From contig NZ_JUIW01000010.1 of the NCBI RefSeq assembly GCF_004151245.1, forward strand, positions 124,001 to 188,000: DNA of 64,000 nucleotides, given 5' to 3'. Below, one piece after another: positions 28,825 through 39,346 of the stretch. The DNA is from Flavobacterium beibuense (GTDB taxonomy: Bacteria > Bacteroidota > Bacteroidia > Flavobacteriales > Flavobacteriaceae). The stretch's first letter is position 1. Each line of letters starts with the position of its first letter. Under the pieces are notes generated by a model. The model saw nothing but the letters and a program-made list of their open reading frames with translations, made no database searches and was not told the origin of the DNA. A program made the translations under genes and the position numbers.

Positions 28825-28871
28825 GTGGTCCCACCTGGGCTCGAACCAGGGACCACCTGATTATGAGTCAG
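28825..28871 (-). repeat. attL: 47-bp remnant of the tRNA 3' half
   Basis: Identical over 47 bp to 38989-39035. It runs from the anticodon arm through the T arm and acceptor 3' strand and lacks the 5' half, so it is not a functional tRNA. It is the chromosomal 3' end displaced when the element entered. Confidence 0.92.
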
Positions 28872-28984
28872 TGTCTATATATTTTTCTTTCTTTATAAAT
28901 ACTTGCCAATAGTTTCTTTATCAAAGAATTAAGAACATTGATATTTGTGTTTATTTTCTCTTCTTATCATATGTTTTTTTTGAA

Positions 28985-29005
28985 TGTTTAACCTATGTTT
29001 AACCC
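28985..29005 (+). repeat. Left subterminal 21-bp repeat (putative recombinase arm site)
   Basis: Contains TGTTTAACC followed by TATGTTTAACCC. A same-orientation copy with one mismatch lies at 38918-38938 near the other end. Paired subterminal repeats inside att sites are typical of integrase or excisionase arm binding sites. Confidence 0.6.
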
Positions 29006-29011
29006 TTTGTT

Positions 29012-29281
29012 TTAGTGTGAAGCCTCACAATGTAAAACTCTGTAGTAAGTATCATTTGGTTCTCCATTCATGTAATCCTCAAAGTATACATGAACACCAT
29101 CAAGATTACAATCTGTAGTATCTGAGGGTTCAATATACCCTTCCTGAAGCTGGCTGCCTTCTATTAAGGTATAATAACAGTTACAACTTTCATTGTCTTT
29201 TTGGCTGTCATCTTCTGAAGAGCAAGCTGTGTAGATGAAGGCACACAGAAGTATGCTCAGTAATAATAATTGTTTTTTCAT
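29012..29281 (-). CDS. Small Cys-containing lipoprotein, element cargo
   Basis: An 89-aa predicted lipoprotein: signal MKKQLLLLSILLCAFIYTAC with lipobox Cys at residue 20. A short acidic Ser/Asp linker and a compact ~60-aa domain with Cys at CNCYYTL, TDCN and LHCEASH follow, suggesting disulfide bonds. No family was recognised. It lies 15 bp after a membrane-protein gene on the same strand, and the two form a unit at the left end of the element. A surface-exclusion or immunity role is possible but unsupported. Confidence 0.7.
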   Translation of the reverse strand: MKKQLLLLSILLCAFIYTACSSEDDSQKDNESCNCYYTLIEGSQLQEGYIEPSDTTDCNLDGVHVYFEDYMNGEPNDTYYRVLHCEASH

Positions 29282-29296
29282 GGTTTGTTTATTTAA

Positions 29297-30016
29297 TTAA
29301 TATTGGTTGTAGTATTCCATCAAGTACTTGTATTCATTTTGAAGAGATCTCTTAACTCCTGCATATATTAAAGTTAATGCAGGAAATAAAAATCCACATA
29401 ATACCCATAACCACTTACTGCCCTTATTATACTTTGTCAAGTCATAACATACTTGAGTAGCAAAAGCTCTATTAACAAGGTTAGCAATAAGAAGTATAAT
29501 AGAATAAGTTTGATATTCTTCAATTGTAAAACTATCTATTAGGTCTTGATCAATAGTCTTTAAAATCAAGATTACAAGTAATATTAATACTCCATACAAA
29601 AGAGTTAAAAGCTTAGTAAGTTTTATTTTTTTATACAGTTTTATATTATCATCATTTACATCTTGATTTATCTTTTTTTGAGGTAGCTCATTTAACTTTG
29701 TTTTCTTATTTACAGCAAGCTTATCTCTATACCCTCCTCCTATAAGAGTTCTTATCTCTTCATCAGTCTTAAAAATTAATAGATATATACTCAATCCTAT
29801 TAACACAATACAGCTTACTACTATACTCTTTAAAGAAACATCTATACCAAGAAGCCCAACATAATACTCTGATAAGGACATTGAGATATGATTTTTTTCA
29901 TAATACAGGAACAAACTAATATCATAAGGCTCTTTAGTAAGGTTTGATATGACAAGTAGTACAATACCTATTATTATTAGCACTACTGGGATTTTCTTTT
30001 CTTCTAGTTGTATCAT
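29297..30016 (-). CDS. Four-helix membrane protein, element cargo
   Basis: A 239-aa protein with helices at ~9-26 (VVLIIIGIVLLVIS), ~62-80 (IVVSCIVLIGLSIYLLIF), ~134-152 (LLTLLYGVLILLVILIL) and ~172-224, the last part being WLWVLCGFLFPALTLIYAGV. A charged cytosolic loop lies between helices 2 and 3. No family was identified. Known type VI-B accessory proteins (Csx27, Csx28) are also small membrane-associated proteins, but no resemblance can be claimed and this gene is over 1.5 kb from cas13b. It is divergent from the XRE gene, with an operator-like palindrome between them. Confidence 0.7.
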   Translation of the reverse strand: MIQLEEKKIPVVLIIIGIVLLVISNLTKEPYDISLFLYYEKNHISMSLSEYYVGLLGIDVSLKSIVVSCIVLIGLSIYLLIFKTDEEIRTLIGGGYRDKLAVNKKTKLNELPQKKINQDVNDDNIKLYKKIKLTKLLTLLYGVLILLVILILKTIDQDLIDSFTIEEYQTYSIILLIANLVNRAFATQVCYDLTKYNKGSKWLWVLCGFLFPALTLIYAGVKRSLQNEYKYLMEYYNQY

Positions 30017-30070
30017 AATTTTATATAGTTAGCATATATGTTAACCAACAAGACAAAAATAAAGCAAATT

Positions 30071-30096
30071 TTGAGTTGACATAAAAATCAACTTAA
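30071..30096. promoter_or_regulatory. Palindromic operator candidate between membrane-protein and XRE genes
   Basis: Arms AGTTGA (30074-30079) and TCAACT (30088-30093) are perfect inverted repeats, extendable to 9 bp with one mismatch. The element lies 5 bp before the XRE start and within the 84-bp divergent promoter region. It is a natural site for the XRE product. Confidence 0.55.
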
Positions 30097-30100
30097 AAAA

Positions 30101-30322
30101 GTGAAAGATTACACTCTACATAAAAAAGTAGGAAAGCGAATTCAGCAAATTAGAGATGAGAAAAACATCTCTCAGCAGGATTTAGCTGCAAGGTGTAATT
30201 TTGAAAAAAGTAGTATGTCCAGGCTTGAAGCAGGTAATGTTAATGGCACATTATCTACCTATGAAAGAGTTGCTAAAGGTTTAAATGTGGAAATTGTGGA
30301 ACTCTTTAAATTTAAAGATTAA
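30101..30322 (+). CDS. XRE-family HTH transcriptional regulator
   Basis: A 73-aa Cro/CI-type repressor that is almost only the HTH domain: VGKRIQQIRDEKNISQQDLAARCNFEKSSMSRLEAG, then LSTYERVAKGLNVEIVELF. The start is GTG at 30101. Such minimal XRE proteins commonly control mobile-element genes, including antitoxin or lysogeny-like switches. It is divergent from the membrane-protein/lipoprotein pair, and the AGTTGA...TCAACT palindrome sits in the shared promoter region, so autoregulation and control of that pair are likely. Confidence 0.88.
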   Translation: MKDYTLHKKVGKRIQQIRDEKNISQQDLAARCNFEKSSMSRLEAGNVNGTLSTYERVAKGLNVEIVELFKFKD

Positions 30323-30407
30323 TCTTTTGGCTATTAATATTAATCTTAAACCTTCTTCATTTCTAAAATTTCATAAAATAAAGCAATGTTTAACCTCTCT
30401 TACACAT

Positions 30408-30851
30408 TCAGCTTAACAAACCAAATTCGGAGAAGCTATAATATCCTTCTTTAGTGACTATTAAGTGATCTATTAGTTTAATATCTAATAATTCTGAGGC
30501 TTTTTTTATTTTAGCTGTGATAGTTTTATCTGATTCACTAGGAATTAAAGTGCCACTTGGATGGTTATGAGCTATGATGATATTTGAAGCATGACACTTT
30601 AAAGCTACTGCAAACAAAAGCTTTATATCTACAACTGTACCACTTACTCCTCCCTTTGATAAATTATAAACTCCTAAAACCTCATTAGCATAATTGAGCA
30701 TCAATATTTTAAATTCTTCCTGCAATTCTAATGTGTCAATATTCCAAGAACCTAGGAGTACTTGAAAAGCTTTTAAACTACCTGTAATTTTTATTTTTTC
30801 ACTAGTATTATTAAAGTATGATACCTTTATTTCAGCAACTTTGTTTTCCAT
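30408..30851 (-). CDS. radC-like: RadC-like JAB/MPN domain protein
   Basis: A 147-aa protein consisting of the MPN+/JAB1 domain of the RadC family. The motif AHNHPSG...SESD gives H95, H97 and D108, and the preceding strand has EEFKILMLNYANEVLGVYNLSKGG. The start MENKVAEIKV at 30851 is chosen because the longer frame to 30920 would overlap the upstream gene. RadC paralogues lacking the HhH domain are very common on Bacteroidota mobile elements; they are predicted metallo-hydrolases but their role (DNA processing, anti-restriction) is unproven. It is co-directional with the 136-aa gene upstream, 52 bp away. Confidence 0.9.
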   Translation of the reverse strand: MENKVAEIKVSYFNNTSEKIKITGSLKAFQVLLGSWNIDTLELQEEFKILMLNYANEVLGVYNLSKGGVSGTVVDIKLLFAVALKCHASNIIIAHNHPSGTLIPSESDKTITAKIKKASELLDIKLIDHLIVTKEGYYSFSEFGLLS

Positions 30852-30903
30852 AATCTTTATATTAATAGCCAAAACCTGAAATAACAAGTTCTGGCTATTT
30901 AAT

Positions 30904-31314
30904 TTACTCTGCATTAACAAGAAGATTATTTTTTACAGTTTCTTTTTCTGTCCTACCTTTCATGAACTCATCAACGGTAGTTTCTGATTTCTCAGGACTA
31001 TATTCCTGCTTAGAAACTTCTTCAGGTTCATATTCATACCTGTGATGTAAAATGATTGTTTCTCCGGTATCCCTAATGGTATATTCATAAGGTTCAGAAG
31101 ATACTTTCTTAATAGCTCCCGCGATATCAGTACCTATTAAAGCCTGACATGTTAATTCATCAAAGGTTGATGGAATAGTGGCCTTCTTAGCCGTTGCATA
31201 AAAACTTCCTGTTACCTGAGATTTTACCATCTCCATTCCTCCCTGTAATTCCAGTACAAAAAACTTTTTACCTTCATCTGAAGTTCTTTCTAAATAATTA
31301 ATAATTCTTACCAT
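30904..31314 (-). CDS. Uncharacterised protein upstream of RadC
   Basis: A 136-aa soluble protein. The N-terminal ~95 residues look globular (MVRIINYLERTSDEGKKFFV, TCQALIGTDIAGAIKKV, YTIRDTGETIILHHRYEY). The tail is acidic and Lys/Glu-rich (EPEEVSKQEYSPEKSET), probably disordered. No family was recognised. Its position just before a mobile-element RadC suggests a common module, and its promoter lies in the same 247-bp gap as the cas13b promoter, read the other way. Confidence 0.65.
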   Translation of the reverse strand: MVRIINYLERTSDEGKKFFVLELQGGMEMVKSQVTGSFYATAKKATIPSTFDELTCQALIGTDIAGAIKKVSSEPYEYTIRDTGETIILHHRYEYEPEEVSKQEYSPEKSETTVDEFMKGRTEKETVKNNLLVNAE

Positions 31315-31373
31315 GACTTTCTGGTTTTTATAGTTAATAATCTTAATTAGGCAGAAACATTTTTGTTTCCTAA

Positions 31374-31414
31374 GGGATGGGTGGGGGTATTGAGTTTTTG
31401 TTTTGGAAGGGGGG
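31374..31414 (+). other. G-rich tract in the cas13b upstream region
   Basis: GGGATGGGTGGGGG is followed 21 bp later by GGGGGG, within otherwise very AT-rich DNA. Four G-tracts on one strand could form a G-quadruplex with one long loop, or mark a protein-binding or origin site. Only composition supports this. Confidence 0.4.
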
Positions 31415-31513
31415 CTATTTGTATAAGGTAGATTGCTTATTTATCATAGAGTAAAATATTTTAGAAAAAAATTTTCGCAACACTTTACTATAAAACCTAA
31501 CAAAAAGTTAAAA

Positions 31514-31529
31514 TACTTATCTTTAAGTA
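31514..31529. promoter_or_regulatory. Palindrome upstream of cas13b
   Basis: Perfect inverted repeat TACTTA-TCTT-TAAGTA, 32 bp before the cas13b start codon. It overlaps TATCTTTA, one base away from the TAnnTTTG -7 box, so it may be an operator overlapping the promoter. Confidence 0.4.
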
Positions 31530-31561
31530 CTATTTAATAATCTAAATAACCACACTTTGAA

Positions 31562-34500
31562 ATGGAAGAAACTACCACTATGGGTAAAGGTGTTGCCTAT
31601 GACCATACTTTATTTAAAGACAAACACTATTTTGCTGGCTATCTTAATCTTGCAGTAAATAACATTGAGAATGTATTCAAAACAGTATATAAAAATCGCT
31701 TTGATATTAAGCAACATAATTTATACAAGATATTAGATTCTCTTGATGGACAAATATCAGAACCTGATTATATTGAGAGAGTTAGTTTTCTTAAACAATA
31801 TTTTCCCGTTTTACACTATCTAGACTTACATCCTGATAATAAAAGGTTTACCAAAGAAGAGGATAAAGTTAAAGCAAGAAGAAGATATTTAATTAACAAC
31901 TTACGATTATTAATTGAAACCTTAAGTAAGCTTAGAGATTTTTATACTCACTATTATCATAAACCTTTAAGCATTGAACAAAACACTTTTAGTCTTATAG
32001 ATAACATCTTTTTAAATGTTGTTATTGATGTAAAGAGACAAAAGAAAAAAAATGATCATACCAGACAGCTTTTAAAAGATTCCCTAAAAGAGGAAATGGA
32101 CATTCTATATCAAAAAACAAAAGCAAGTCTAAAAGAAAAACAGAAAGAAAACACTCGTATTAAACTTGATAGTGAAACTATAAATAATACTATTTTTAAT
32201 AATTCTTTTAGTCATTTGATTTATAGGCGAAAAAAAGCAGATAATGATATTTTATCTGCATCATGTAAATCTGAATACAAAGGGGAACCAACTGAGAATG
32301 GTATAAATGTTTCTGTAGATGGATTATTATTTTTCCTAGGAATCTTTTTATCAAGAAAAGAAAGTAACGACTTAAGAGGCAGAATAAAAGGTTTTAAAGG
32401 AACTGTGATTAAAGACCTTCCTGACTTTCCAAATGAGAAAAACAATAGTCTTAAATTTATGGCTACACACTGGGTTTTCACTTATTTAAACATAAAACCC
32501 ATAAAACAAAAGTTAAATACTAATTTCTCCCGAGAAACATTGTTACTTCAGATTGTTGATGAGCTTACCAAAATACCTAATGAAATTTACCGCAATTTAT
32601 GTTTTAAAAAACAACAGGAATTTGTAGAAGATATAAATGAATACATTAAAGAAGGGGATGATATAGACACGTTAAATAGCTCAACAGTTATACATCCTGT
32701 AATTCGAAAAAGGTATGAAAATAAATTTAATTATTTTGTTTTAAGATACCTTGATGAGTTTGTAAGCTTTAACTCACTGCGATTTCAAATATATTTAGGT
32801 AACTATGTTCATCATATCCAAAGAAAAAAACTATCAGGAACTGAATATGAAACAGAAAGAGTCATTAAAGAAAAAATTAATGTATTTGGAAAATTATCAG
32901 AAGTAAGTAATATTAAAGGTGATTATTTTATTCAAAATAATCCTGATAATGAAGCTTTAGGTTGGGAAATTTATCCTAATCCCTCCTATAACTTTACAGG
33001 TAACAACATTCCCATATACTTTGACATTAATGATCAAGATAAAGAAAAAATAAACGAATATAAATCTATAAGAAATTTCTCAGAAAAGAGAATACTGAGA
33101 AAAAAGAATAAAAAGAATAAGCAAGAGATTTTTGATTTAATAAATAATACGCTTACTACACGAGTATTTACTGCTGAACCTACTGCTATTCTATCTCTTA
33201 ATGAATTGCCTGCACTTTTATATACAATCTTATGTGAAAATAAAACAGCAAGTGAAATAGAAAATTTATTAAGACGTACATATCTGAAAAGATTAAACAC
33301 TATTAAAAACTATCAGCCAGGAACTTTGCCTCAATCAAAAATAACAAAGAATTTAAACAAAAGCACCAATCAAGAAAGTTTAGATGTCTCCAAGCTTATA
33401 AAAGCAATGAAACATGAGATAAGTATTAGTAATGAAAAGCTTACTCTAATTAAAAAAAATCAAAACGAAGTTAAAGACACATCACATAGAAGAAAGTATG
33501 TTTTTAATAGTAAAGAATTAGGTATAGAGGCTACTTGGCTTGCCAATGACTTAAAACGTTTTATGCCTAAAAAGGTAAGAGAAAATTGGAAAGGGTATAT
33601 GCATAGTCAACTACAAAATTCAATAGCATATTACAGCCAAAAGCCAAAAGAGGCTTTATCAATACTTTCATCAGTATGGAACTTTAATGATGATAATTAT
33701 ATTTGGAATGAAGGTATCAAAAAGGCTTTTAACGAAAAGGAATTTGAAAAATTTTATTGTAAATACCTAGCTAGCAGAAACAAAACCTTAGAAAAACTAA
33801 AAGAGAATTTAGATAATCTTGAATACAAAACCGATAAAAGGAAACTAGATAAGTTTATTAAGCAGCAAAACCTAGATTGTCTTTTCCATATAAGGACTTA
33901 TACTATAGATAGTACTCAGGAACAAATTAACAAACTGCTTGCAAAACCCTTAGTTTTTCCAAGAGGTATTTTTGACAGTAAACCTACCTTTGTAAAGAAT
34001 GAAAGTGTAACTGAAAAGCCTGAATTGTTTGCAGATTGGTATACCTATACATACAAAGAGCATCCTCTTCAGGAGTTTTATAGCTTTACAAAGGATTATG
34101 AATGTAACTTTAAAAAAGAAAAACTTACCGTAAAGGAATTTGTAAAAAATCAAGAACAATTAAATCCTGAAGAGCAACTAAATCTTTTTAAACTTAAAGA
34201 AGATCTGTCTATTAAATGTATAAAAAACCAAGATCTTTTTCTCAAACTTGTTGTAGATAATATATATAATAAAATCTTTGAATACAATATAGATATATCA
34301 TTAAAAAACCTTTATATAAGTAGGAAAGAACGCATAGCAATAGGCTTAAAAGCTAAAGAACTGAATCAAATCAATGATAGTTATATTTGGGGTAAAACAA
34401 TCTTATATCAAGACAAACAGATTAGAGAAACAAAAGTACAACTAAAAGATATAAATAAAATTAAACGTTTTTTAGAAGAAGATAAGGTAAAGCAAATTTT

Positions 34501-35005
34501 AAGCTATGATATAAATAAACAATGGGAAATAGAAGAATTAAAGTATGAGCTTTATATTAAACCCAACTCTTATGAAGTAATAAGAAGAGAAAAACTATTT
34601 AAGGCTATTCAGGAGTTTGAAAGTTATATTTTAACGATTAATAACTTTGATGGTTCAAATCACCCTTCTATATTAGAATATAATAGTAACCCTAGGTTTA
34701 AGCATTATGTGGTAAATGGATTATTATTAAAAAAAGGACTTGCAACAAATGAAGAAATAGAATGGTTATTAGCTAAAGGGCAGAAAGAGTTTAACACATT
34801 TGATAAAAGTATTGTTGAAAAACCTGAAATTATACAAAAAGCTTTTTTACTTGTACTTATAAGAAATAAGTTTGCCCATAGTCAATTACCTATTAAAGAA
34901 TACTACGAAATGATTAGAAGCTATACTAAGAACATTGAAAACCTGAACACAACTGAAATAATATTCCAGTTCACAACAAACACTATTAATGAATTAAAAA
35001 GGTAA
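31562..35005 (+). CDS. cas13b: Cas13b, type VI-B CRISPR RNA-guided RNase
   Basis: A 1147-aa effector, within the usual ~1100-1200 aa of Cas13b. It has the two HEPN RNase motifs RxxxxH near the two ends: RDFYTH (R125-H130) and RNKFAH (R1101-H1106). HEPN domains at the extreme N- and C-termini are the arrangement of subtype VI-B, in contrast to Cas13a. The middle is Lys-rich and has no other recognisable domain, as expected for the crRNA-binding lobes. The protein processes its own crRNA and cleaves target RNA, with collateral RNase activity in the family. The ATG at 31562 is used; M7 is an alternative. A CRISPR array begins 57 bp after the stop. No cas1, cas2, csx27 or csx28 was recognised nearby. 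The gene is cargo of a tRNA-integrated element. Confidence 0.95.
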   Translation: MEETTTMGKGVAYDHTLFKDKHYFAGYLNLAVNNIENVFKTVYKNRFDIKQHNLYKILDSLDGQISEPDYIERVSFLKQYFPVLHYLDLHPDNKRFTKEEDKVKARRRYLINNLRLLIETLSKLRDFYTHYYHKPLSIEQNTFSLIDNIFLNVVIDVKRQKKKNDHTRQLLKDSLKEEMDILYQKTKASLKEKQKENTRIKLDSETINNTIFNNSFSHLIYRRKKADNDILSASCKSEYKGEPTENGINVSVDGLLFFLGIFLSRKESNDLRGRIKGFKGTVIKDLPDFPNEKNNSLKFMATHWVFTYLNIKPIKQKLNTNFSRETLLLQIVDELTKIPNEIYRNLCFKKQQEFVEDINEYIKEGDDIDTLNSSTVIHPVIRKRYENKFNYFVLRYLDEFVSFNSLRFQIYLGNYVHHIQRKKLSGTEYETERVIKEKINVFGKLSEVSNIKGDYFIQNNPDNEALGWEIYPNPSYNFTGNNIPIYFDINDQDKEKINEYKSIRNFSEKRILRKKNKKNKQEIFDLINNTLTTRVFTAEPTAILSLNELPALLYTILCENKTASEIENLLRRTYLKRLNTIKNYQPGTLPQSKITKNLNKSTNQESLDVSKLIKAMKHEISISNEKLTLIKKNQNEVKDTSHRRKYVFNSKELGIEATWLANDLKRFMPKKVRENWKGYMHSQLQNSIAYYSQKPKEALSILSSVWNFNDDNYIWNEGIKKAFNEKEFEKFYCKYLASRNKTLEKLKENLDNLEYKTDKRKLDKFIKQQNLDCLFHIRTYTIDSTQEQINKLLAKPLVFPRGIFDSKPTFVKNESVTEKPELFADWYTYTYKEHPLQEFYSFTKDYECNFKKEKLTVKEFVKNQEQLNPEEQLNLFKLKEDLSIKCIKNQDLFLKLVVDNIYNKIFEYNIDISLKNLYISRKERIAIGLKAKELNQINDSYIWGKTILYQDKQIRETKVQLKDINKIKRFLEEDKVKQILSYDINKQWEIEELKYELYIKPNSYEVIRREKLFKAIQEFESYILTINNFDGSNHPSILEYNSNPRFKHYVVNGLLLKKGLATNEEIEWLLAKGQKEFNTFDKSIVEKPEIIQKAFLLVLIRNKFAHSQLPIKEYYEMIRSYTKNIENLNTTEIIFQFTTNTINELKR

Positions 35006-35062
35006 AATTACACTTACAGTAGGGTAAGTAAAATATTGAAAATAAATACATTAAAGATTGTG

Positions 35063-35428
35063 ACTGTAACTAATCTTAATTTGAAAGGTATTCACAACAG
35101 TCTGTTGTTTTCTGCTTGTTGCCATTTAGTTGTAACAGACCTTAATTTGAAGAGTAATCACAACTTGTGCAAAGTTATATTAATATGTATTATTCTTGTA
35201 ACAGACCTTAATTTGAAGGGTATTAACAACAGTACACGCTTCTCTCTGTGCTTTAGCTATGTTGTAACAGACCTTAATTTGAAGGGTATTCACAACTTAC
35301 TATTACTTTTTTTAGTCTGTTGTTTTGTTGTAACAGACCTTAATTTGAAAGGGATTAACAACTTTATTGTTTTATCTACCTATAGGGGTAGGGTTGTAAC
35401 AAACCTTAAGTTGAATGGTATTAACAAC
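35063..35428 (+). CRISPR. Type VI-B CRISPR array: six 36-bp repeats, five 30-bp spacers
   Basis: Repeats are at 35063-35098, 35129-35164, 35195-35230, 35261-35296, 35327-35362 and 35393-35428; all five spacers are exactly 30 bp. The consensus begins GTTGTAACAG, has a central CCTTAATTTGAAGGG and ends CACAAC, with complementary ends as in known Cas13b repeats (GTTG...ACAAC). That resemblance implies transcription in the cas13b direction and crRNAs of the form spacer-repeat. Only the fourth repeat matches the consensus fully: the first is altered in its 5' half and the last in its 3' half. The last 13 nt of spacer 4 equal the first 13 nt of spacer 1. A GAAA-tetraloop terminator follows at once. 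Confidence 0.97.
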
Positions 35429-35430
35429 AA

Positions 35431-35459
35431 AAAAGGCTTACAGAAATGTAAGCCTTTTA
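35431..35459. terminator. GAAA-tetraloop terminator shared by the array and the integrase gene
   Basis: A perfect 12-bp stem AAAAGGCTTACA / TGTAAGCCTTTT closes a GAAA loop two bases after the last repeat. Because of A- and T-runs on both sides it can end both the crRNA precursor and the convergent integrase mRNA. A near-copy lies at 38951-38978. Confidence 0.85.
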
Positions 35460-35461
35460 AT

Positions 35462-36697
35462 TTAAGCACTAATTAATTCGGGTTCGGGTTCCCTTAATAG
35501 TTTGGCAGAAGCTTTATCAATGTCCTCATCTTCAAAAGCTTTTAAATAGGTTTGTGTCATCTGTATGTCATGATGCCCCATAGCCTGACTAATTATATCA
35601 GCCCCTTCTCCTGCTTCTCTTAAGTTAGTTGCAAAACTATGTCTGGCTACATAGCTTGTAACTTTTTTAGTAATCCCAACAGTTTCTGCTATAAGCTTCA
35701 AGTCTTTATTAAACTTTTTCAGCTTCTTCCCTTTTCTTTCCTCAATCTGTTTAGGTCTTAAATCATTTCTCAGGAGTATAGGAAAAATATAGCCTGTAAT
35801 TCTATTCTCTAATCTATACTCATCTAAAATCTGTTGAACAGGTTCAAGTATTTTAATCTTAAAGTTCCCTTTTGTCTTAGACCTTGTATAAACAATATAA
35901 TCCCCTTCTATATTACTCCACTTAAGCTTCATCATGTCATAAAAGTTCATTCCTCTTGTATAATAAGAAAAGAGAAAGAAATTTTTTGCCTCCCTCAAAT
36001 GAGGATGTTTTTCTACATTTAGGTTTTCTATCAGCAATACTTCATCCCTAGTTAATGCCCTCTTAATTCCTTTTCCTTTTAATTTTGAAATTTTATAAGC
36101 AATAAACGGGTAAGCATCTTTTTTTACCACTCCTCTTCTTATAGCATCATTAAATAAAGTTCTAATATCTCTCATTCTAACAGCTATACCCCCATCAGTA
36201 CCTCCTCTAGTTCTTAGATAGTTTTCATACTTTTCTAATAGCTCGGGAGTAATTTCTCTAAACATAAGTTGTTTGTTTTCAATGTATCCAAAGAAAGAGT
36301 TTAATGTGCCTTCATATGTTCTTGCACTGCCTGTTCTTCCTGCTAATTCAAAGTTTTGTATCTTTTCTAAGATAAAGTCTCTCACAGTAATATTTTTATC
36401 CTTCTGCCCTCTAAACCTTTTTTCAAACTGAGCTAAAGTAAAGTCTACTTTTTCTAACTCAAATTCATCTATTATTTTCAGGGCTTCTTCTTTCTTTTGC
36501 AATAGAATTCGGTTTCTTACCCTATAGTTTTTATCCGACTTTTTTAACTCTCCATTAGCCTCATCCCAGTCTTTTTTAAGACACTTAAAGGGCAGGCTAA
36601 TAATCTTTACTTTTCTGTCTTTTATTATTCTTAATACTATAGGGTATAAGCCTTCTGTAGTAGGTTTATTTTTTAGTGTAATTTTTATTGTTGCCAT
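35462..36697 (-). CDS. int: Tyrosine recombinase (integrase) of the element
   Basis: A 411-aa site-specific recombinase. Domains in order: an N-terminal Arm-DNA-binding region (~1-90), a SAM-like core-binding domain (~100-205) and the catalytic domain (~213-395). Catalytic residues are R248 in YYTRGMNFYDM, a Lys in TRSKTKG (K274/K276), R352-H353 in VARHSFAT, H375 in MGHHD and the nucleophile Y384 in TQTYLK. The Tyr in place of the first His of the HxxR box is usual for Bacteroidota integrases. Placed between att repeats in a tRNA gene, it is the likely integration enzyme. It is the last gene of an HTH-initiator-int operon, with 38 bp to the upstream gene. Confidence 0.95.
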   Translation of the reverse strand: MATIKITLKNKPTTEGLYPIVLRIIKDRKVKIISLPFKCLKKDWDEANGELKKSDKNYRVRNRILLQKKEEALKIIDEFELEKVDFTLAQFEKRFRGQKDKNITVRDFILEKIQNFELAGRTGSARTYEGTLNSFFGYIENKQLMFREITPELLEKYENYLRTRGGTDGGIAVRMRDIRTLFNDAIRRGVVKKDAYPFIAYKISKLKGKGIKRALTRDEVLLIENLNVEKHPHLREAKNFFLFSYYTRGMNFYDMMKLKWSNIEGDYIVYTRSKTKGNFKIKILEPVQQILDEYRLENRITGYIFPILLRNDLRPKQIEERKGKKLKKFNKDLKLIAETVGITKKVTSYVARHSFATNLREAGEGADIISQAMGHHDIQMTQTYLKAFEDEDIDKASAKLLREPEPELISA

Positions 36698-36735
36698 TTT
36701 ATATTATATCTTATATAGTGTAAAATCTTTCACTT

Positions 36736-37623
36736 TTAGTTATTAATCAAATACTCAAATTTTTCCTGTAGACTATTAAAAATCATATTTTTTGTTTCTA
36801 ATAACTTATGCTTTTCTAATAGACTGTCAAGCTGATGTTTTTTATTATATCTGGTTGTTGAGCCTTTCTTTTTTAAATGAACATTCCAGTATAAAGGATT
36901 AGTTAATTTATATAGCTCAGCTAAATCTGATTTAGGCTTTACAGAGTCAAAATCATCAATAATCCTCATCTCTGCATATCTTTTTAATAGATAACTAAAC
37001 AAGTTTCTTAACACCTCTTTACATTTAAGATTTTCTAATGTATCTACTCCTAAAGACGTTAACAAGTGTTTGTTTTTGAAAACAATTTCAAACCTTAGAG
37101 TATGTTCTTCACTCCCATACTGTAATTGTTTATCATAAACCTTTATCTGATATTGTGCATGTACGAATCTTTTTAATTCTCCTCTACCAGCATACTTATT
37201 ATTTTCATTATGAAATGCTTCTTTATGCATCAAGACATTATCTTTTATTATTTCTTTGGCCGGAACATCAACATATATGTTTAAACCAAATTCCAAGCGA
37301 GTTATAGACGCAGTGCTAGAAGTTGGCACTTTTTCAGACAGAGTATCAATAGTATTCACTAGATTACAGTAAGTAAAATCATTGTAATTATGTTTACCTT
37401 CATTATTTAAAATATTATTTAGTATGTGAAGTGAGTGTTTAATCTCCGCTGTATTTTCTCTTACAATAATCTCCATATTCTCCAAATTGGCTTTAATAGG
37501 ATATCTACCTTCTTGACTTGCAAGCCGTCTTATCTCATAAGCTTCTGGGAAGTAAACAGGATTCTTTACTACTTCTTCAATCTCCTGCTTGTTGTGATAG
37601 TACAGTCTTATAAAATCAACCAT
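36736..37623 (-). CDS. Putative replication-initiator-like protein of the element
   Basis: A 295-aa protein that resembles phage gene II/X-type or rolling-circle initiators found in Bacteroidota elements. Features include an N-terminal MVDFIRLYYHN strand, a central TRLEFGLNIYVDVPAKEII segment, YQIKVYDKQLQYG, and LRFEIVFKNKHLL...GVDTLENL. A basic C-terminal tail (KKKGSTTRYNKKHQL) follows. An HUH motif could not be located with certainty, so the assignment rests on overall pattern and context. It begins 2 bp after the HTH gene and lies just before int, the order expected for an excision-replication-integration operon. Confidence 0.45.
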   Translation of the reverse strand: MVDFIRLYYHNKQEIEEVVKNPVYFPEAYEIRRLASQEGRYPIKANLENMEIIVRENTAEIKHSLHILNNILNNEGKHNYNDFTYCNLVNTIDTLSEKVPTSSTASITRLEFGLNIYVDVPAKEIIKDNVLMHKEAFHNENNKYAGRGELKRFVHAQYQIKVYDKQLQYGSEEHTLRFEIVFKNKHLLTSLGVDTLENLKCKEVLRNLFSYLLKRYAEMRIIDDFDSVKPKSDLAELYKLTNPLYWNVHLKKKGSTTRYNKKHQLDSLLEKHKLLETKNMIFNSLQEKFEYLINN

Positions 37624-37625
37624 CC

Positions 37626-37913
37626 TTATTTAGTTTTAGCTAAATAATTTTCTACTTCAGAACCCATTTCAAAAACAGAAAGAACTTTACTTCTTTCAAT
37701 CCATTCTTGTAAGCTTTCTTTTTTAAAGTATATCTTCTTACCTCCTGGTTTGTAATAAGCTATTTCATTGTTACTTGTAAGCTTATATATTGCTGATAAT
37801 GAAACCTGAAGATATTCTGCTGCTTCCTCTATGGTAAAGAACTCTTTGCTCAATAAATATTGTCTTTTTACTATAGACTCTATTTCAATTAATTTATTAA
37901 TGATAATTTCCAT
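37626..37913 (-). CDS. Excisionase-like helix-turn-helix protein
   Basis: A 95-aa protein with a MerR/HTH_17-type domain at ~27-80: FFTIEEAAEYLQVSLSAIYKLTSNNEIAYYKPGGKKIYFKKESLQEWI. This is the typical excisionase or directionality-factor fold in Bacteroidota elements. The start MEIIINKLIEIES at 37913 is preferred over 37976, which adds an unlikely leader. It is first in the operon with the initiator-like gene and int, and a cluster of TGTAAGG repeats lies 85 bp upstream. Confidence 0.85.
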   Translation of the reverse strand: MEIIINKLIEIESIVKRQYLLSKEFFTIEEAAEYLQVSLSAIYKLTSNNEIAYYKPGGKKIYFKKESLQEWIERSKVLSVFEMGSEVENYLAKTK

Positions 37914-37996
37914 TAAGATTTGTTTTAATGGATATGCGCATATCACTGTTAATAATGAAGCAAAGAAAGTGTACAAAAAAACCTCCTATCACAAAG

Positions 37997-38038
37997 TGTA
38001 ATGGAGGTGTAAGTATAAGTGTAAGGTAAAATGTAAGG
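37997..38038 (+). repeat. Iteron-like GTGTAA repeats upstream of the excisionase operon
   Basis: GTGTAA-type motifs begin at 37997, 38007, 38019 and 38031 (last copy ATGTAAGG), spaced 10, 12 and 12 bp, close to one helical turn. They lie between the 281-aa gene and the excisionase-like gene. They may bind the initiator, excisionase or integrase. Confidence 0.45.
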
Positions 38039-38041
38039 TTA

Positions 38042-38887
38042 CTATTTTAGATACTTCAGCTTTAATAAATTTAGCTTTCTATCAATCCTATCAAAATATT
38101 CTTTATTTCTATCAGAACCGCGAGATAGTGCAGCATACAAATCTGTGCTTTTTAAAAGCTTTCCCTGCTTATTATAGAAAGAGCAACTCTTTTCTATTGT
38201 CACTGCATTTAAATTGTCAAAAAAGGGTTCTATTTGCTTTAAAAAGTATGCTACTATAGGGTTAGATTTATTAAAAGTAAGTTTTAAAGCTTCATCAGGT
38301 TTCAAACAAGTAAAAACACTGTAAAACATTTCTTCAGGTATCTCAACATCATCAATTAAACCTAATTCATAACCCACCTCATACAAGTCCTCAAAAAAAG
38401 TATTTTTTAAATCTTTATATTGAAAATAAGAACTGCCTCCATACTTTGTTAAAACATTAAATAAAGAATGTTTTTGCTCTGGATAAATTAACCTTAAATC
38501 TTCTATTAAAGAATATAGCTGCTCTGATATTTTATTAAAGTAGAAAGTGTCTTTAGTTTTAGATTTCTGATAGAGTACTTTTAATTGACTAAAGCCTAAA
38601 GCTAAATTAATAGCTTCTTCTCTTGAAAAGTAATCTAAAAGATCTTTTTTCTTATCAAGGACTATAGTAATGAAAAACTTTTCTTTAGTTATCTCGTCAT
38701 AGCTAAATTGAGCATTAGGACCATCTTCAAGCATTTCCGTTTTTAAATAACAACTATGCTCTGTAATAAAAATATAACCTTCTTCTAGTAAATTATTATT
38801 ATTGTAAAATGAAGATATTAAATGATTGATTCCGTCAAAGAATAACAAATCATTAAAAAAATTAAGAGGAGATATGTCTTTGTCCAT
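38042..38887 (-). CDS. Uncharacterised 281-aa protein, element cargo
   Basis: A soluble, mostly helical and charged protein with no signal peptide or membrane segment. The N-terminus is rich in Asn/Phe (DGINHLISSFYNNNNLLEEGYIF). The C-terminal segment KSTDLYAALSRGSDRNKEYFDRIDRKLNLL resembles the ends of unnamed proteins from other Bacteroidota elements, but no function is known. It lies at the right end of the element, upstream of and co-directional with the excisionase-initiator-int operon, and may be a regulator or a replication partner. Confidence 0.65.
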   Translation of the reverse strand: MDKDISPLNFFNDLLFFDGINHLISSFYNNNNLLEEGYIFITEHSCYLKTEMLEDGPNAQFSYDEITKEKFFITIVLDKKKDLLDYFSREEAINLALGFSQLKVLYQKSKTKDTFYFNKISEQLYSLIEDLRLIYPEQKHSLFNVLTKYGGSSYFQYKDLKNTFFEDLYEVGYELGLIDDVEIPEEMFYSVFTCLKPDEALKLTFNKSNPIVAYFLKQIEPFFDNLNAVTIEKSCSFYNKQGKLLKSTDLYAALSRGSDRNKEYFDRIDRKLNLLKLKYLK

Positions 38888-38917
38888 GCAAGCCTATTTA
38901 ACATCAAATATAATAAT

Positions 38918-38938
38918 TGTTTGACCTATGTTTAACCC
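38918..38938 (+). repeat. Right subterminal 21-bp repeat (putative recombinase arm site)
   Basis: TGTTTGACC followed by TATGTTTAACCC. It matches 28985-29005 at 20 of 21 positions in the same orientation, 50 bp inside the right att repeat. Confidence 0.6.
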
Positions 38939-38950
38939 GCATAAAAAACA

Positions 38951-38980
38951 AAAGGCCTTACATTTCTGTAAAGCCTTTTA
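38951..38980 (-). terminator. Terminator supplied by the element behind the tRNA gene
   Basis: On the minus strand AAAGGCTTTACA / TGTAAGGCCTTT closes a GAAA loop, with T-rich sequence after it. It replaces the tRNA terminator displaced to 28798-28824 and is almost the same hairpin as at 35431-35459. Confidence 0.75.
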
Positions 38981-38988
38981 AAAACTGG

Positions 38989-39035
38989 GTGGTCCCACCT
39001 GGGCTCGAACCAGGGACCACCTGATTATGAGTCAG
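38989..39035 (-). repeat. attR: 47-bp tRNA 3' half supplied by the element
   Basis: Identical to 28825-28871. Together with the chromosomal 5' half it rebuilds a full tRNA gene, so integration leaves the tRNA functional. Confidence 0.92.
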
Positions 39036-39063
39036 GTGCTCTAACCAACTGAGCTATAGGACC
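38990..39063 (-). tRNA. tRNA with CAU anticodon (elongator Met or lysidine-modified Ile2)
   Basis: A 74-nt cloverleaf on the minus strand. Acceptor GGTCCTA pairs with TGGGACC. The D arm is GCTC/GAGC, the anticodon arm CCTGA-CTCATAA-TCAGG with anticodon CAT, and the T arm CCTGG-TTCGAGC-CCAGG. The discriminator is A and CCA is not encoded. It lacks initiator features. Elongator Met and Ile2 (CAU, lysidine) cannot be separated safely by eye. It is the integration target of the Cas13b element. Confidence 0.95.
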
Positions 39064-39346
39064 AGTTTTGAGGTTGCAATATTACTACTATTTTTAATTC
39101 AATGCAAATAAATTTAAAGGATTATTTTGTAAAACCGGATAATAAATTTTTATATCCTGATAATGTGAATTTTAATATTTGATAATAATATTCGATTTTG
39201 AGTTATAACTGAAAACTCAATACTGTTAAAAATGAGCCTTGTTTTTTAACAGTTAATTCTGAATTTTAATAATTCTATGGGAAAAACCTGTAAATGAGAA
39301 TATTATATTTGATACTTAAACACATTACTAATTAAAACCAAACATT

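Follow-up and report, generated by a model that had tools for sequence, protein, structure and literature searches.

Our results support a model whereby two of the five spacers in a Cas13b-associated CRISPR array of Flavobacterium beibuense were taken up from overlapping protospacers in one target. The array lies in a window of 64,000 nucleotides, by which we mean the whole stretch of DNA that was analyzed. The best explanation as a whole, in which we have good confidence, is that this pair sits in a frozen type VI-B array carried by an integrative element, that it provides redundant cover for Cas13b, and that it was acquired in trans. We infer the tiling of spacers 1 and 4 from evidence internal to the sequence.

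The 66-nt period is constant throughout the array in the window sequence. On re-reading that sequence, we recovered, at the same coordinates, the 13-nt suffix/prefix identity between spacers 4 and 1 that had been reported in a preliminary description: AGTCTGTTGTTTT is both the 3' end of spacer 4 (35314-35326, spacer positions 18-30) and the 5' start of spacer 1 (35099-35111, spacer positions 1-13), and a scan of both strands of the 64-kb window found this 13-mer in these two places only. Tiling predicts a match that stops exactly at the boundaries of the two spacers; this is the case, and the spacers are offset by 17 nt. Upstream of the array, the gap after cas13b resembles a leader and may act as one, by analogy with the VI-B locus of F. 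columnare, in which a leader is transcribed toward the array (PMC8092290). The hairpin that follows the last repeat is perhaps a terminator between the array and the integrase gene. It is one of two similar hairpins, at 35431-35458 at the array end and at 38950-38979 beside the right att site.

Table 1 Features of the Cas13b-carrying element in the window, in order of position.
Feature	Position	Strand	Basis or remark
Left att repeat, 47 bp, copy of part of tRNA-Met	28825..28871	.	Perfect direct repeat of 38989-39035
Small lipoprotein-like ORF, cargo	29012..29281	-	Sequence reading; family matches only weak/uninformative
Membrane-protein-like ORF, cargo	29297..30016	-	Sequence reading; no convincing family
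RadC-like JAB-domain protein	30408..30920	-	PF04002 E 5.5e-36
ORF beside RadC	30904..31314	-	No family in Pfam, NCBIfam, PADLOC, PHROGs
Cas13b, 1147 aa	31562..35005	+	NF038190 VI_Cas13b E 3.1e-258; PADLOC Cas13b E 1.7e-253
Leader-like gap, cas13b to repeat 1	35006..35062	+	Sequence; putative role taken from F. columnare VI-B
CRISPR array	35063..35428	+	6 x 36-nt repeats, 5 x 30-nt spacers
Spacer 1	35099..35128	+	First 13 nt common to spacer 4
Spacer 4	35297..35326	+	Last 13 nt common to spacer 1
Hairpin, 12-bp arms, 3' of last repeat	35431..35458	.	Inverted repeat
Tyrosine recombinase (integrase)	35462..36697	-	PF13102, PF00589, PF17293
Probable rolling-circle-type replication initiator (Rep)	36736..37623	-	Predicted structure; no Pfam match
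Helix-turn-helix excisionase-like protein	37626..37976	-	PF12728 E 1.1e-15; TIGR01764 E 7.2e-16
ORF with weak DUF6617/DUF6078 match, below cut-off	38042..38887	-	
tRNA-Met(CAT), integration target	38986..39064	-	Right att repeat 38989-39035 inside

The preliminary description had called the overlap very unlikely by chance. Our analysis agrees that it lies beyond chance, but the odds given there (20 x 4^-13 = 3e-7) were too strong by ~50-100 times because they assumed equal base frequencies, whereas T makes up 51% of the spacers and 8 of the 13 shared nt. With the spacers' own composition, the expectation for a dovetail of at least 13 nt over the 20 ordered spacer pairs is 2.9e-5, and shuffling of the five spacers produced such a dovetail in 3 of 200,000 trials; the chance of a shared 13-mer at any position within the spacers is ~3e-3. 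As an empirical background, arrays were extracted from the collected loci, giving 394 spacers from 36 Cas13b loci including the window; loci L012 and L014, which duplicate L032 and L044, were left out, no array was present in L015 or L016, and the 394 include two spacers from a spurious two-spacer "array" in L042 as well as a few one-spacer fragments. Within loci, the 2,680 pairs of distinct spacers, compared in either orientation, contained two dovetails of at least 8 nt, namely one of 8 nt in L023 and the 13-nt dovetail of the window array, which is the only one of at least 9 nt in the 36 loci. Between loci, 74,737 pairs contained dovetails of 8 nt (thirteen), 9 nt (two), and 24 nt (one), and 13 nt were shared at any position in 3 pairs.

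Two between-locus pairs deserve mention in their own right. Spacers of two Labilibaculum genomes (L046 and L048) have 24 of 30 nt in common exactly, offset by 6 nt. Spacers of Sphingobacterium hungaricum (L021) and Chryseobacterium sp. CH25 (L031) overlap by 26 nt with one mismatch, and the overlap, read as target RNA, encodes WQQAFDWF in both in one of two shared open frames; it perhaps represents one conserved mobile-element gene, and one search of phages with the L031 spacer returned no record with 80% query cover. Long overlaps turn up where two spacers plausibly share one target and hardly otherwise. Could two unrelated T-rich spacers nevertheless have come to carry the same 13-mer at matching ends? 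Their composition raises the odds of such a coincidence ~100-fold over 3e-7, and some look-elsewhere correction is due because the overlap was chosen from a reading of the whole window. Weighed against the expectation and the shuffles, the scarcity of 13-mers shared anywhere, and the fact that the sole between-locus dovetail longer than 9 nt belongs to the pair with 24 of 30 nt in common, we consider coincidence very improbable.

Cas13b arrays do rearrange: whole-spacer duplicates are present inside L011, L018, and L027 and near-identical spacers inside L045, all of which look like array duplications. An origin of the 13 nt by copying inside the array after acquisition, via slippage or gene conversion between units, nevertheless strikes us as likewise very improbable, since the known cases duplicate whole spacers whereas here 13 nt only are shared, end versus start and with no shared flank, and since copying would have had no reason to halt exactly at the start of spacer 1 and the end of spacer 4. 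Separately, we considered and rejected an origin of the spacers by inverted copying of the repeat; a match of 7 nt to a repeat's reverse complement is present in spacers 1 and 4, and 50 of the 394 spacers reach at least 7 nt.

If the tiling is true, the overlap yields 47 nt of an unseen invader and, for either protospacer, one genuine flank. On the target strand, the merged sequence is TAA ATG GCA ACA AGC AGA AAA CAA CAG ACT AAA AAA AGT AAT AGT, which could be the start of a gene; this is a hint only, given a chance of ~0.065 for such a pattern, and coding orientation gave no useful signal over all spacers. Because each spacer shows one flank of its partner, the protospacer of spacer 4 would be preceded by a 5' G and that of spacer 1 followed by a 3' AAA. 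Both flanks satisfy the reported Cas13b flanking rule, which is 5' D and 3' NAN or NNA (PMC9569848), and this fit may lend the tiling weak support, weak because AT-rich sequence often meets the rule. In the merged protospacer, spacer 1 is preceded by the nine bases ACTTTTTTT, which do not correspond to TTTA-N5, the protospacer motif described in F. columnare, where only about half of the VI-B protospacers are reported to bear it (PMC8092290).

A continuous match to the merged sequence, which the preliminary description had proposed as proof of the tiling, was not found in phages, plasmids, viral contigs, or genomes of the genus, and a control array fared no better. The 47 nt matched 5 phage records and 176 plasmid records, none with 80% query cover (best E 0.3 and 0.8, respectively, among the matches listed). 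In viral contigs, codon-degenerate patterns gave nothing in two scans and two loci in a third, while exact seeds gave nothing in two scans, thirteen loci in one, and one locus in another; at none of the 16 loci does the match continue (12-35 of 47 nt identical), and 10 of the 13 loci from the one exact-seed scan form one family of near-identical stretches. None of 398 genomes of the genus contained a degenerate pattern that covers 33 of the 47 nt, even with 3 mismatches allowed. The other spacers gave a similar picture: spacer 3, with 3 mismatches, was found in 1 of 378 genomes of the genus, namely in its own array, and the phage records matched by spacer 3 (30, the best 8 viewed) and by spacer 5 (26, the best 8 viewed) included none with 80% cover. 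Spacer 2 was searched solely as part of the native array. The best phage match of the native array (E 0.03) was a 29-nt stretch of Lactococcus phage bIL309 at 93% identity, which we judged to be chance because it starts inside repeat 4 and covers just part of spacer 4. At 29 loci with Rep homologues, spacers matched no better than shuffled spacers. The control, array L041 of Flavobacterium covae, matched three phage records (E 0.6), none convincing; because this array yielded no convincing phage target either, the missing target in F. beibuense is weak evidence.

The locus is, by its sequence, a type VI-B CRISPR-Cas system: a Cas13b with two HEPN RxxxxH motifs (RDFYTH near 125 and RNKFAH near 1101) is encoded next to an array of ~30-nt spacers and of 36-nt repeats such as accompany Cas13b. 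R125, H130, R1101, and H1106 are invariant in 5 sequences, and RNA cleavage is predicted. The protein has diverged: identity is 42% to its best match elsewhere in 398 genomes of the genus and 45-46%, over the best segment, to the nearest of 41 collected loci. In its own genome it is the only match to a Cas13b profile. The listed ORFs of the element (those of at least 80 aa were scanned) gave no PADLOC-DB match to Csx27 or Csx28, accessory genes that are found in some VI-B loci only. A search of viral contigs for Cas13b confirmed none.

The Cas13b locus is cargo of a 10,164-bp (10.2-kb) integrative element, spanning 28825-39035, in tRNA-Met. This follows from the 47-bp att repeats and from the empty site in a relative (G024), in which the flanks of both repeats join at a single repeat copy (L074:2058-2104); ~155 bases past that copy lie two genes absent from the window. 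A second relative (G011) has one repeat copy too, with its neighbors arranged otherwise. Direct repeats at the ends, an integrase gene, and an empty site are thus all in evidence. Beside the integrase, the element encodes a probable rolling-circle-type Rep. The prediction comes from structure modeling: in Foldseek searches with the AlphaFold2 model (pLDDT 89.9), the best match was RepDE 4cwe (E 2.4e-7, TM 0.51, 13% identity) and all 6 PDB matches with E < 0.001 were rolling-circle replication initiators. Rep homologues are present in 55 of 378 genomes of the genus, its own included. When the eight other element proteins were compared by tblastn with loci L011-L058, the sole match beyond their own locus was a weak one of 56 residues to the integrase (L047), so the pairing of this element with Cas13b was not seen elsewhere in these loci. 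The element was also absent from PLSDB at megablast sensitivity.

The array looks frozen, for which we have two indications: no Cas1 was detected and the repeats are degenerate. The Cas1 profile (PF01867) matched nothing in the 3.72-Mb genome (21 contigs, 99.85% complete), while the control matched in 9 of 14 genomes. In a survey of 30 Cas13b-carrying genomes, a subset of the Cas13b loci that includes the genome of the window, 15 had Cas1. The profile also found nothing in the F. columnare NBRC 100251 genome (L032), despite the II-C module reported for the species, and the absence in F. beibuense may therefore be a miss or a draft gap. Repeats 1-6 have 6, 2, 2, 0, 3, and 4 mismatches to the consensus, and with a mean of 2.8 the window repeats are among the most degenerate (fourth of 30); repeat divergence was higher in Cas1-less genomes as a trend only (15 versus 15 genomes, one-sided p 0.059). 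Repeat 1 keeps 3 of 5 terminal pairs and repeats 2-6 keep 5, 4, 5, 5, and 5; predicted folding energies are -3.6 to -6.5 kcal/mol for repeats 2-6 and -0.9 kcal/mol for repeat 1, whose predicted fold is without the outer stem. These predictions are suggestive of an outer stem of the crRNA handle that is mostly kept in repeats 2-6, and suggestive only, because all six repeats fold not clearly better than their own shuffles (z 0.82 to -1.02).

A type VI-B crRNA consists of a spacer followed by its downstream repeat. Repeat 1 is consequently part of no crRNA, and its decay is expected in a Cas13b array that no longer grows. In agreement with this, when the longest array of each locus was considered, 8 of 36 loci (the window, L021, L023, L026, L031, L051, L055, and L058) had at least 6 mismatches in the first repeat and 2 of 36 (L046 and L057) in the last. 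Because repeat 1 contributes to no crRNA and yet would be the site of integration, we hypothesize that its decay may offer an easy way to recognize arrays in which growth has ceased.

An apparently frozen array on a mobile element with its own putative Rep invites readings other than that of a host's immune memory. In one, a self-replicating integrative element would carry fixed Cas13b guides, doubled on the start of an essential gene in a competing element or a phage, as an inherited weapon the handles of which are kept by selection; we consider this unlikely. Less likely still is that the array is no longer immune memory and is now a fixed guide set for regulation of the element or its host, with overlapping guides silencing one gene start: the apparently frozen state, the largely kept outer stems, and a merged target that opens TAA-ATG-GCA-ACA and stays open for 14 codons would fit, whereas spacers 1, 3, 4, and 5 have no site within 3 mismatches in their own genome except in the array, and random 47-mers of the window show such a start at a frequency of 0.065.

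The pair is still best explained by protospacers that overlap in one target, given the boundary-exact match, the shared orientation, and the rarity of such overlaps, while the 47-nt target itself was not found in the collections searched. In our model, spacers 1 and 4 would have been integrated independently from 30-nt protospacers on the same strand, offset by 17 nt, in one invader genome or in close relatives. Each crRNA, made up of a spacer and its downstream repeat, would guide Cas13b to complementary RNA, and both guides would be directed to the same 47-nt stretch of one transcript, with redundant cover. Given the degenerate repeats and a genome in which no Cas1 could be detected, we suggest that the pair was acquired in trans via another adaptation module, in an ancestor or an earlier host, and is now frozen. 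Acquisition on two occasions, as previously proposed, follows if both are real spacers, but with no Cas1 detected and a mobile element as carrier an earlier host is possible; the two acquisitions are probably old or were made in another host. As to their cause, repeated exposure and an acquisition hotspot, the two options put forward before, are indistinguishable from each other and from two acquisitions during one infection.

F. columnare provides the closest comparison. Its VI-B locus likewise combines Cas13b with 36-nt repeats and mostly 30-nt spacers (L032) and is described as having no adaptation genes of its own (PMC8092290, PMC5524643); Csx27 or Csx28 was seen in neither locus, in the case of the element among its listed ORFs. 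There, however, a genomic II-C locus is reported to supply adaptation and the array grows (PMC8092290), whereas in F. beibuense the search for Cas1 found nothing, the repeats have degenerated, and a tRNA-Met element carries the locus. In F. columnare, VI-B spacers are reported to be acquired jointly with the II-C module; both types draw on one limited pool, and the phage is sampled unevenly along its length (PMC8092290). In natural isolates, VI-B spacers target predicted mRNA (PMC8092290, PMC5524643), while in most of the new spacers acquired in the laboratory mRNA targeting was reportedly not seen (PMC8092290). Overlapping same-strand spacers would fit such uneven sampling of a limited pool together with selection for a useful transcript.

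The tiling of overlapping spacers into contigs is already known (PMC3468723). In the Sulfolobales, spacers whose protospacers overlap, so that a contig can be built from them, have been described from uptake in culture or from environmental populations (PMC3468723, PMC6858448), whereas here two occur in one five-spacer array; within the loci of natural Sulfolobus strains, overlapping spacers are reported to be rare (PMC3468723). Virus-borne mini-CRISPR arrays similarly place a small array on a mobile element, but are described as lacking cas genes (PMC6858448), whereas the element in F. beibuense has its own Cas13b. The 10K genomic island of Riemerella anatipestifer resembles the element in size (~10 kb), tRNA site, perfect direct repeats, and tyrosine integrase and differs in its Arg-tRNA site and other, 53-bp repeat; the word CRISPR is absent from the main text of the paper that describes it (PMC6764341). 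In our literature search we met no paper that describes Cas13b within an integrative element in tRNA-Met, which is not a claim that none is in print.

The setting of the spacer pair outweighs the overlap. The overlap is a modest curiosity; an element-borne and apparently frozen Cas13b system is more interesting. Where no Cas1 is detectable in the genome, Cas13b together with a rolling-circle-type Rep on a small integrative element would show how RNA-targeting immunity can move, and persist, without adaptation.
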